From contig JAUCGL010000011.1 in the NCBI GenBank assembly GCA_030378105.1, positions 1 to 56,044 of the forward strand: 56,044 nt of DNA. The letters are read 5' to 3'. The stretch comes from Candidatus Halobeggiatoa sp. HSG11. GTDB lineage: Bacteria; Pseudomonadota; Gammaproteobacteria; Beggiatoales; Beggiatoaceae. How positions within the stretch are numbered: position 1 is the stretch's first letter; every line of letters begins with the position of its first letter. The position numbers and the translations under genes were made by a program. Below, piece by piece: positions 1 to 3,345 of the stretch. Under the pieces are notes generated by a model. That model was not told the origin of the DNA, did not search any database, and worked only from the letters and a program-made list of their open reading frames with translations.

Positions 1-954
1 ACGGCAAACTTGCCATTTTTTTGCAGGATGATTTGTTTGAGAACTGTACAAGTCGGACACCCTACATTTCAGGTTTGTGACCATCCATAACTTCTTCAAT
101 AACTTTTCGACCACGACTTGGACGAATAATATGAAAACAAACGTCTTTATTTTGAAATACCCATTCCCATTCGTTTTTTCCATTAATTCTTGCTGAAGTC
201 TCATCACAACCAACGATACGACTTGCACAAAGACAACTAACGGATTTTTTCAACTTCTGGGTCCAAACGATTTTTCACTCGTTTGAATAAGTTGGCAAGT
301 CCACCTTCACTTATATCAAGATGGTTACATTTCCGTTAAACATACTTGATAATCTGTTATAACTTATGGAATGAGCATAACGTTGATACGTTGCTGTTGC
401 TTCCACAGCAGCTACCAAAAGGAGTTCCCGGCTCCTACATCAGCAGGAACTGGACTCACAATTATGTTTTCATGACAATGAGGACAATGCCCACCATATT
501 GTTCAACTCTGGTTATGTATCGGTTGTACTGGTGGAATTTCTATTTTGTCGTATGTTGCATGCAAACGTTGTGGATTCACCGTCTCTCCGCAATGAGGAC
601 AAGTTTTGGCACGAGCAACTACTGTTTGACTTGGATTTGGGTCCAAACTGCGACCATTATTTCCTTGTGTACGTGGTTTTCTTGTTTTCTTTTCGCTTGG
701 CTTTTTATTGGCTTTTTGGTCTTTTGACGGAAGATTACTTGAGTTTTTGCTTGTTTTTTTTGGAGTTTCATCACACGATGCCTGACCTTTCAAGGCTTTA
801 TTTTCTACCTGCAAGTCTTTGGTTCTCTTCCCACAATTCCATGATTAACTCATTTTTTTTGAGGTGGGATAGAGCATTTAACATCGGTTACTTTTTCCAT
901 GTTTTATATTGGAAATCATTTTTGCATCGTTGTCAAGAGGGAGTGAGTAATTAC
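1..954 (-). pseudogene. IS66-family transposase relic (5' part, continues off the window)
   Basis: Decayed IS66-type transposase read on the minus strand. Positions 503-814 encode a lysine-rich N-terminal stretch ending in the zinc-finger motif CPHCGE, typical of the IS66 zf domain. Positions 62-253 encode part of the DDE domain (VGCDET, NGKNEWEW, RPSRGRKVI). Stops and frameshifts separate the pieces, and the likely start near 820-900 is also out of frame, so the gene is dead. The right end carries GTAATTACTCACTCCC on the minus strand (about 939-954), matching in inverted form the outer end of the second IS66 relic at 18949; this looks like the element's terminal repeat. The first ~60 bases match 18396-18456 almost base for base in reverse complement. 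Confidence 0.85.
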
Positions 955-1086: not shown

Positions 1087-3345
1087 TCAAAAATAATGAT
1101 ATATAAACCACATTGTACTTATTATAATGGTAGTTGGATAAAGTGTTTTAGCTAATATTTTGAACTGTTTTTCTCGTTTGATATTCTTTTTTTTATGTGC
1201 ACTATGAAGTGCTGTAGTAATGATAATTCCAAATATAATAAGTATGTATATTATATAAAAAACATAATCAAGAGCAACTAGATAACCAACTCCGGGCAAA
1301 TCATTAGATAATTTTAAATGAAAAAAAGCTGCGGTTAATAAAGAACCTCTAACAATAGCATTAGTTACGGAAAGCTGATCAGAAGGAATAAAGAAAGCAA
1401 AATAGGATAATAAAACAATTACAAATAGAGGGAATAAATTTTTTATGCTAAAATTCAACACATCTCGGTGAATCTGAATTACTGTGTTGAAACGTGAATA
1501 TTCTATGTTACCATCGGAATCAAAAAGCAGTGGATTTCCCAAAGTTGATTCACTTTTAGTTATATCCTGAAAAATACGAACATTTCCAACTTTCCAATTA
1601 CCTATAGAATCTAAAGCTTTAGTTCTATTAAACTTATCTAAAATAGCTTCACTGCTAGTTTGACGTAAACCGACAATATCAACAACATAAATTAATTTTT
1701 CTCTTGTCATATGAACATGACGGAATTTAATTGCTAATTTTTGCTGATCGAAAGGATAATCTTGAAATAAAAAATCACCTTTGAAATTTGCTTTTATACG
1801 ATAAACTTCATGATGTGTATCATTTATTAAAGTTTTATCAATTGGTTCACCTAACTTAATGGGTTTAACTGAATTGATAAATTCAATATTATGGCTATCA
1901 AATTCTCCACGATAACGAAACCAAAGATAGAAATCTACAGTGTAAGAAGAATTCTTAATATCCAAGTTACTAACAGCATTAATATCTATACCAGTGTAAA
2001 CAATTTTAGTTTGGTAAACTAAATTATTATCAACAGTAAGTATTTTGTTATCATTGATGTTTAAACTTGATTTTTGTTCTAATACAATTTGAATATTTAT
2101 TGGCTCAAACTGTGTTAAAGCGGAAATAAAATGCCTACGATTAAAAACACCAACAGCAACTGGTTTAATAATATTGCCATACTTATCAAAATAAATCTTA
2201 CCATTCATGCCGGAAACACTGTTTTCAATGCTATTTATTGTAGTTAAATAATCTCTGATTTGTTGGCGTTCTTTTGCTATTCTTGTACCTTGTACTTTTG
2301 ACATTTTAATAGCTTGAACTGCAACTGCTGCTGCATCATAATAAGTTGCAGTGTACCAATTAGGTTCTTCATTATGTTGCTTGATAAACTCATTTCTTAG
2401 AAGATTAGTTTTTTCATTGGCAACATCAAAAATTATAGGAGAAGGTGCATAAATATTTTTAGAAAAGTAACCCGGTTCTGACTGTTCTTCATGGTATATT
2501 TTGAATGATTTAGCAAAGTTTTTTTCGCTGATAGCTTCTGAACCAACTATTAGGTTGGACACACCTAAACGTCTTAACTTAACAATAATTTTTGCAGCTT
2601 CTTGACTATGAGTTGCTAGAAATATTATCTCGGATTTTTTTGGTTTATCTTGCTGATCTTTTGCGAATGTTATAGCTATTTTATTGAGAAATTTCTCTAC
2701 ATTTTTGACATTAAAACGTAATTTATGGTTAATTTTACCGCCAACGTTTTTAAATGATTTCTCAAAAGAAGTTGCTAAAGAACTACCATATTCATCTTGA
2801 TCAAAAATAATATTGGCTACTTTTCGTTGTATAACTTTCTTGACATAATTAGCTAAATAGGCTGCTTGAGAATGGTTACTAAATACGGTTCTGAAATACC
2901 AATCATTTTCTTTAGTGACAGCATTTGTAGTTGCAGAACCAGAAATTGCTGGAATTTTAAATTTTTTATAAACTGCTCCGGCACTGATGGAAGTTGAACT
3001 GAAAGCATGTCCGATAACAATGAGTGCCTTATTTTGCTCAACAACTTCTAATGCTCGTCTGCGAGCTAAAATTTTGTCATTTTGATCGTCAAGTATTATT
3101 AGTTTAACTGGTTTACCATTAATGCCACCAGTTTTATTAATGTCATTTAGGTAAAGATTGACTCCTTTAACCATTGATTGCCCGAGATTTTGATAAGTTC
3201 CACTCATAGGTCCAATCAAAACAATATAAAAGGCATCTTTTTCGGTTGATAAAATACCTAATTTTGTTATAATAAAAATTATTATAGTGATAATTGCCAG
3301 CAATAAAGAAAGTGGGAATAAAAAATTAAAGGTAAGCAATTTCAT
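1087..3345 (-). CDS. Periplasmic-binding-protein / pentameric ligand-gated ion channel fusion
   Basis: A 752-residue membrane protein. A hydrophobic segment (about 7-30) is followed by a type I periplasmic binding domain of the branched-chain amino acid/receptor kind (about 37-415; IGPMSGTYQNLGQS, DDQND, YYDAAAVAV). The second half reads as a whole Cys-loop-superfamily channel of the bacterial pro-loop type: beta-rich extracellular domain (about 440-632) with the loop DYPFDQQKL (529-537), then M1 with LFPLFVIVLLSYFAF (637-651), M2 (about 657-678), an LP-containing M2-M3 loop (683-684), M3 (687-712) and M4 (730-752). Bacterial pLGICs with extra N-terminal domains are known; the ligand here is unknown. 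Such genes tend to be labelled ABC substrate-binding proteins, but no permease or ATPase gene lies nearby. Monocistronic; no clear Shine-Dalgarno sequence. Confidence 0.85.
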   Translation of the reverse strand: MKLLTFNFLFPLSLLLAIITIIIFIITKLGILSTEKDAFYIVLIGPMSGTYQNLGQSMVKGVNLYLNDINKTGGINGKPVKLIILDDQNDKILARRRALEVVEQNKALIVIGHAFSSTSISAGAVYKKFKIPAISGSATTNAVTKENDWYFRTVFSNHSQAAYLANYVKKVIQRKVANIIFDQDEYGSSLATSFEKSFKNVGGKINHKLRFNVKNVEKFLNKIAITFAKDQQDKPKKSEIIFLATHSQEAAKIIVKLRRLGVSNLIVGSEAISEKNFAKSFKIYHEEQSEPGYFSKNIYAPSPIIFDVANEKTNLLRNEFIKQHNEEPNWYTATYYDAAAVAVQAIKMSKVQGTRIAKERQQIRDYLTTINSIENSVSGMNGKIYFDKYGNIIKPVAVGVFNRRHFISALTQFEPINIQIVLEQKSSLNINDNKILTVDNNLVYQTKIVYTGIDINAVSNLDIKNSSYTVDFYLWFRYRGEFDSHNIEFINSVKPIKLGEPIDKTLINDTHHEVYRIKANFKGDFLFQDYPFDQQKLAIKFRHVHMTREKLIYVVDIVGLRQTSSEAILDKFNRTKALDSIGNWKVGNVRIFQDITKSESTLGNPLLFDSDGNIEYSRFNTVIQIHRDVLNFSIKNLFPLFVIVLLSYFAFFIPSDQLSVTNAIVRGSLLTAAFFHLKLSNDLPGVGYLVALDYVFYIIYILIIFGIIITTALHSAHKKKNIKREKQFKILAKTLYPTTIIISTMWFIYHYF

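Follow-up and report, generated by a model that had tools for sequence, protein, structure and literature searches.

The 56,044-nucleotide stretch of Candidatus Halobeggiatoa sp. HSG11 DNA analysed here (contig JAUCGL010000011.1), called the window over its whole length, carries on the minus strand at 1087..3345 a gene whose product is the protein under study. In this protein of 752 amino acids a type-I periplasmic binding protein (PBP-I) domain precedes a complete pentameric ligand-gated ion channel (pLGIC) subunit. Sequence comparison makes it highly likely that the family to which it belongs uses one periplasmic double sensor, a PBP-I flytrap followed by a pLGIC-type extracellular domain (ECD), on two unrelated pores: that of pLGICs or that of MscS, the latter often accompanied by a cyclic nucleotide monophosphate (cNMP)-binding domain. 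The MscS-based members would constitute a new class of bacterial channels, gated by a small molecule on the outer side and by a cyclic nucleotide on the inner side. They would also be the first example of a pLGIC ligand-binding domain (LBD) set by nature on another pore, of which no earlier case is known to us. Taken alone, the window protein adds a member to an architecture on record since 2004.

A probable double sensor on two unrelated pores

Local hidden Markov models (HMMs) built from paralogues of the window's own genome assign 158 proteins with this ECD, found in 69 genomes, to 58 with a pLGIC pore, 99 with an MscS pore and one that is cut; all tallies refer to sampled loci and not to whole genomes. 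A PBP-I match is present in 58/58 pLGIC-pore and 98/99 MscS-pore proteins, the exception (L056) starting at a contig end. Both pore types are found in 18 genomes, only the pLGIC pore in 16 and only the MscS pore in 35. The extensions at the carboxyl terminus are specific to the pore. A cNMP-binding domain is found in 50/99 MscS-pore and 0/58 pLGIC-pore proteins, while SBP_bac_1 follows the last transmembrane helix (M4) in 8/58 pLGIC-pore and 0/99 MscS-pore proteins. Four transmembrane helices bring the chain back to the periplasm, whereas the MscS vestibule and the parts downstream of it are cytoplasmic. The two kinds of extension fit this topology, because the chain ends in the cytoplasm in one case and in the periplasm in the other.

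The genome that harbours the window (assembly of 5.2 Mb in 326 contigs) has both types. The channel profile A2 gives 16 matches there, and the fetched matches include 15 proteins with the PBP-I and ECD module. Seven have a pLGIC pore (the window protein, C93a, C93b, C67, C319, C283 and C148, named by contig), seven have an MscS pore (C136, C222a, C222b, C266, C108, C133 and C80) and one, C66, is cut by a contig end. With Neur_chan_memb, searched in six frames across the assembly, 4 places are found, all under the cut-off. The Pfam family MS_channel_2nd matches 7/7 of the MscS types (E 3.4e-14 to 2.7e-17), three of which also have a cNMP-binding domain, and it is present in all five further MscS-type proteins submitted to Pfam (two of locus L051, plus L052, L159 and L181). 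C93a (L005:6306-9863, contig C93, 1186 amino acids) and C148 (L010:2016-5567, contig C148, 1183 amino acids) are triple fusions of PBP-I, pLGIC and SBP_bac_1, the last domain lying after M4 with E 7.8e-32 and 9.3e-32, respectively.

Three MscS-type loci have peculiar gene structures. C222b (L042:6653-9739) starts with a match to the S-adenosylmethionine synthetase N-terminal domain instead of a signal segment, while ordinary starts are seen in the closest relatives by PBP-I, L063 of G003 and L055 of G004. This amino terminus is probably chimeric, through assembly or recombination; the tallies include the protein with the MscS types, and the local HMMs make use of its ECD and MscS segments. At L094 and L110 the MscS-type gene is split in two open reading frames (ORFs; 705+263 and 834+159 amino acids, respectively), apparently as broken copies.

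The relation between the ECDs of the two branches is supported by direct comparison. The window ECD has 38% identity to that of the MscS-pore paralogue C136 over 194 residues (E 5e-49), and profile A11, built from 39 of the 48 available pLGIC-pore proteins, aligns to profile A10, built from 39 of the 86 available MscS-pore proteins, with hhalign probability 100%, E 2e-62 and 36% identity; both E-values are those of single comparisons. Positions conserved at 75% or more in each of the two pore sets (134 proteins) include W475, F476, R477, N491, Y515, F521, H543, D556, G559, W584, G603 and S617. Neur_chan_LBD is recognised in 27/39 pLGIC-pore ECDs with E no higher than 1, the best value being 5.5e-7.

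The two sets differ at residues thought to couple sensor and pore. The Pro-loop of the window protein reads Y-P-F-D (residues 530-533; 1747..1758, minus strand), with D533 aligned to D122 of GLIC, and the arginine preceding the first transmembrane helix (pre-M1), R627 (1465..1467, minus strand), is aligned to R192 of GLIC. In GLIC these two residues form a salt bridge within a triad used in signal transduction between the ECD and the transmembrane domain (TMD) (PMC5760087). The Pro-loop proline and aspartate occur together in 56/58 pLGIC-pore proteins (48/48 and 8/10 in two subsets) and in 1/99 MscS-pore proteins (0/86 and 1/13). The pre-M1 arginine is found in 58/58 (48/48 and 10/10) and 1/99 (1/86 and 0/13), respectively. 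Conservation of the full D32-R192-D122 triad was considered and is not claimed: LDDK of GLIC aligns on LDIK, an aspartate at 463 is found in 31/48 pLGIC-pore and 62/86 MscS-pore proteins, the loop-2 acid is unassignable and only the D-R pair is used.

When the coupling columns are left out, a single change separates the pore types in the ECD tree (Shimodaira-Hasegawa-like approximate likelihood ratio test, SH-aLRT, 99). The PBP-I tree, calculated with 130 of the 134 proteins whose pore type is known (the PBP-I of the others is too short), requires at least five pore changes, of which well-supported branches impose two. This is read here as one pore exchange, probably followed by exchange of PBP-I domains. 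Confidence is lower for the latter than for the single change of pore, since both trees come from quick searches that gave warnings on long branches meeting. The MscS pore would be the derived state because the core of LBD and four transmembrane (4-TM) helices is the known form. The PBP-I and ECD module would have been transferred once to a pore of the MscS type, with later loss of the pLGIC coupling residues and frequent addition of a cytoplasmic cNMP-binding domain.

Several observations weigh against this view of the family. Neur_chan_LBD is found in 0/39 MscS-pore ECDs, whose matches to unrelated families are scattered and concern one member each, and no solved pLGIC is matched in the PDB by the MscS-type ECD profiles A10 and A5; the pLGIC fold of these ECDs therefore rests on their homology to the pLGIC-pore ECDs. 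The MscS-pore protein L170 retains both the proline and the aspartate of the Pro-loop, two pLGIC-pore proteins have P-x-G in this loop, and the pre-M1 column is sensitive to how the sequences are aligned, with an arginine within 3 columns in 20/99 MscS-pore rows. On the tree the association of coupling residues and pore amounts to two independent pairs on well-supported branches (five on all branches), with p 0.5 and no statistical power. The pore change is so rare that the association lies beyond a statistical test, and its weight comes from the fit to known pLGIC mechanics.

The MscS-based, pore-swapped variant is apparently undescribed so far. In searches of the open PubMed Central library, no listed title or abstract start reports a PBP or a pLGIC ligand-binding domain on an MscS channel, subscription papers and preprints being outside this scope. 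Standard Pfam annotation would miss such proteins, because their middle domain is recognised only via the pLGIC-pore relatives. MscS channels known to date are heptameric, and superfamily members with a cNMP-binding domain presumably are those named bCNG. These combine an MscS pore with a cNMP-binding domain like half of the MscS-pore relatives, but the latter add PBP-I and the pLGIC-type ECD, and the window protein lacks an MscS part. The family can be seen as a natural pore-swap in which one sensor module serves two pore folds. By comparison of the two sets, a long-standing question becomes directly testable: what contacts of the ECD are needed for its fold and its ligand, and what contacts for gating. 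The pLGIC family includes the nicotinic, glycine and GABA receptors. The findings also suggest ligand gating, and not only tension gating, for some MscS-family channels.

Organization of the window protein and comparison to known receptors

The gene begins with an ATG codon and codes 752 amino acids followed by a stop, with no internal stop codon. Its first feature is a hydrophobic segment at about residues 8-30 (3256..3324; this and the following positions are on the minus strand), a putative signal peptide or signal anchor seen in the translation, with a helix at residues 2-35 in a low-confidence structure model. The PBP-I domain, of the LIV-binding or ANF-receptor-like type, occupies residues 39-420 (2086..3231). 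It is matched in Pfam by Peripla_BP_6 (residues 41-398, E 1.3e-39) and ANF_receptor (residues 63-395, E 9.8e-23), as well as by the local HMM and by Foldseek. In the PDB the amino terminus of the whole protein hits 4gnr, a LivJ-type binding protein for branched-chain amino acids (E 9.9e-22), as does the PBP-I domain (E 2.5e-22).

The ECD (residues 432-632; 1450..2052) is delimited by profile and local HMM matches. Neur_chan_LBD stays below threshold (E 0.017) when residues 430-752 are used as single-sequence query in Pfam. A profile of ECD plus pore from the window protein and six own-genome paralogues (A8) aligns to residues 18-314 of GLIC chains (3lsv_A, E 7.6e-24; 3eam_A, E 3.6e-23), and the ECD-only profile A4 also matches GLIC (E 1.3e-7). 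The four-helix pore M1-M4 (residues 634-752; 1090..1446) is recognised by Neur_chan_memb (residues 638-725, E 2e-6, 28.7 bits for a cut-off of 28.1), by the local HMM, by the GLIC profile match and, in the single-protein PDB search, by the Cys-loop ligand-gated ion channel 6fl9 (residues 617-750, E 5.5e-7) and by 6v4a (E 1.8e-6), which we take to be DeCLIC. The M2 pore helix spans residues 659-682 (1300..1371), that is -2' to 21' when numbered through the GLIC alignment, and the boundaries of M1-M4 are those given by the alignment and the low-confidence model only. Pfam finds in this protein no match to MS_channel_2nd or MscS and none to type-II periplasmic binding proteins (PBP-II), its pore being of the pLGIC type.

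The original prediction, made from the DNA letters, had proposed, with no strand given, a binding domain and a pLGIC in one chain with both halves complete. The Pfam, PDB and GLIC profile matches bear this out, the GLIC alignment running across ECD and pore and the PBP-I match covering residues 41-398. The segment 630-752, which the same prediction had singled out as the place where a failure to match M1-M4 would count against it, is covered by the Neur_chan_memb, 6fl9 and GLIC matches. The window protein thus appears to be a genuine receptor-channel subunit of the PBP-I plus pLGIC kind. The novelty attributed to this combination does not hold. PBP-I domains N-terminal to pLGICs were described in Magnetospirillum magnetotacticum and Bradyrhizobium japonicum by Tasneem et al. 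in 2004 and likened to NMDA receptors, in a work reporting also that PBP-II genes lie near some bacterial pLGICs and that the bacterial forms preserve the core module of LBD and 4-TM (PMC549065). These fusions of PBP-I to acetylcholine-receptor-type ligand-gated ion channels (ART-LGIC), compared here by their description only, have the domain order PBP-I, LBD, 4-TM of the window protein (PMC549065). In contrast to them, the family described here has the LBD also on MscS pores and an SBP domain after M4 in eight proteins; the terms MscS and mechanosensitive are absent from the available text of that article (PMC549065).

Other known receptors share part of this organization. GLIC, the proton-gated channel of Gloeobacter, corresponds to the window protein end to end in ECD and TMD and has the equivalents of D533 and R627, but the GLIC chains matched hold ECD and pore only (~317 residues), to which the window protein adds PBP-I. 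Furthermore, the position of the acidic E222 of GLIC (-2') is occupied by a serine. DeCLIC, another pLGIC from bacteria, likewise has an extra domain ahead of the channel, but there this domain consists of two jelly-roll lobes (PMC9897478) and not of a PBP-I. Ionotropic glutamate receptors combine PBP-type domains and a ligand-gated channel in one chain, like the window protein, but their pore is from another family and is inserted into a PBP-II domain (PMC549065).

Proposed ligand sensing and gating, and alternative explanations

The closest solved relatives of the PBP-I domain are amino-acid binding proteins, branched-chain ones first. Residues H113, S116, A138 and T139, which by analogy with related structures presumably line the binding pocket, show 81-100% conservation across 48 pLGIC-pore proteins. 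At position 270 the window protein has a glutamate and 81% of these 48 proteins have an aspartate, while serine is the commonest residue (40%) in 82 MscS types. This is compatible with an amino-acid-like ligand of PBP-I, and the two pore branches may bind different ligands.

The window protein is likely a subunit of a ligand-gated channel whose flytrap senses an amino-acid-like ligand, within a family that has two pore versions. In the proposed mechanism, it would form part of an inner-membrane channel, a homomeric or heteromeric pentamer, whose periplasmic Venus-flytrap PBP-I would bind a small, probably amino-acid-like ligand. Closure of the flytrap would be passed to the pLGIC beta-sandwich beneath it, and from there the signal would travel via D533, R627 and the LP loop between M2 and M3 to the M2 pore, presumably allowing ion flux. 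The coupling elements P531, D533, R627 and the M2-M3 LP loop are intact.

Some features of the protein and of its models speak against such a function. Position 0' of M2 is R or K in 38/58 pLGIC-pore proteins, and the window protein has a threonine at 0' and an arginine at 5'. AlphaFold models of the window protein and of an MscS-type protein, both calculated from four-row alignments, have a mean predicted local distance difference test (pLDDT) of 55.2 and 57.3, respectively, and at this confidence they give no reliable interdomain packing. No pLGIC is among the 50 Foldseek rows listed for either model. The top Foldseek matches of these low-confidence models are 4gnr for PBP-I (E 1.9e-17) and 9h2s for MscS/YnaI (E 1.7e-12). 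Lastly, the window gene has no SBP_bac_5 gene upstream and no adjoining solute-binding protein (SBP) gene, unlike most of its pLGIC-pore relatives.

Those relatives lead to a first alternative, for which there is perhaps one chance in a handful: the PBP-I would not be the gating sensor but would concentrate the ligand or dock a loaded soluble binding protein, with gating through the pLGIC intersubunit site, as proposed by Tasneem et al. for the PBP fusions (PMC549065). Among 135 proteins for which SBP neighbours were counted, a SBP_bac_5 gene is found upstream of 28/40 pLGIC-pore genes without SBP_bac_1, at distances of -58 to 1421 bp (22/28 under 130 bp), of 0/8 pLGIC-pore genes with SBP_bac_1 (two without room for it) and of 1/86 MscS-pore genes (nine without room). 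At L163, a pLGIC-pore locus, it lies directly downstream, and such neighbours are seen at 5/20 further loci. Frequent adjacency of one binding protein and fusion of another after M4 in eight other proteins suggest that a binding protein is a physical partner of these channels. However, the window gene has neither partner, and its binding domain retains the positions conserved in the family.

The M2 sequence calls for a second, somewhat less probable alternative, in which the window protein would join the pLGIC-type paralogues of its genome (seven including itself, plus the cut one) in a channel, as an auxiliary or non-conducting subunit. The threonine at 0' and arginine at 5' are unusual, paralogues are many in this single genome and animal pLGICs may be heteropentamers (PMC549065). 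Intact coupling elements argue against this, as does the leucine at 9', the commonest residue there (35/58 pLGIC-pore proteins). Ion selectivity was also considered from M2 and is not claimed: serine and valine occupy -2' and -1', leaving no acid there, and 0' is a threonine. An acid at -2'/-1' is not required of all pLGICs.

An assembly artefact or a pseudogene is extremely improbable although the gene sits near the end of its contig, because the frame is open over 752 codons, the source genome is 99.99% complete with 0.4% contamination and the splitting of the fusion in related genomes that would betray such an artefact is not seen: the order PBP-I, ECD, pore is common to 58/58 fetched pLGIC-pore proteins, two of them (L185) on a single-contig genome of 8.0 Mb.

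Distribution of the family and neighbouring genes

The ECD profile A3 has 141 matches in 30/42 genomes of the window's family, belonging to 18/25 genera, some matches being pieces of one gene; a search at the level of the order gives the same 42 genomes. It matches 18/369 genomes in the class sample (E up to 1e-5), with ten of the matches in short frames of ~210-375 amino acids that probably code plain pLGICs, 43/398 genomes in the phylum sample (E up to 1e-8) and 41/291 genomes sampled from the order of Desulfobacterales bacterium HSG16 (E up to 1e-8). The loci retained comprise all 15 own-genome matches and 80 regions with 97 ECD proteins from the 126 other matches in the family, 20 chosen regions from class and phylum with short frames left out, and 20 more from the HSG16 order. 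Most family matches left out are short, stop-containing or at contig ends, and some are intact (e.g. G027:C84, G030:C52, G007:C155 and G007:C242). Short frames of ~210-430 amino acids, probably plain pLGICs, are outside the count of 58/58 architectures.

The window's family contains both the pLGIC-pore and the MscS-pore architecture, as do the 20 Desulfobacterales-order regions, and very probably both exist in two phyla. Locus L051 of Desulfobacterales bacterium HSG16 (Thermodesulfobacteriota) has in a row a PBP-I-ECD-MscS-cNMP gene, a SBP_bac_5 gene and a second PBP-I-ECD-MscS-cNMP gene, and L052, from a Magnetococcales metagenome-assembled genome, codes PBP-I-ECD-MscS. The latter genome seems identical to G434 of the window's phylum, since contig number, coordinates and E-value agree. 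Some loci are on single-contig genomes, such as L098 on G039:C1 (4.8 Mb) and L185 on G900:C1 (8.0 Mb). Tandem pairs of MscS-type genes have in 14/16 cases the order no-cNMP then cNMP (e.g. L091, L098 and L107; the first gene is broken in L110). This fixed order suggests that the two products may form heteromers.

The sixteenth A2 match of the window's genome, C271 (L047:2939-4915, 658 amino acids), has Cache-domain matches ahead of an ECD and pore that look pLGIC-like, an arrangement similar to the second kind of fusion described by Tasneem et al. Large WD40-type proteins are coded near both pLGIC-type genes of contig C93: L005:10048-13662 has Pfam matches to WD40 and to a caspase domain (Peptidase_C14, E 3.3e-20), and L006:141-5279 is similar by eye only. 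The two divergent genes adjoining the window gene resemble, by eye, glycine dehydrogenase subunits. Downstream of it, an ORF of 103 amino acids (503..814, minus strand) has a weak match to the IS66-transposase zinc finger (E 0.0061, below the cut-off) and is possibly a remnant.

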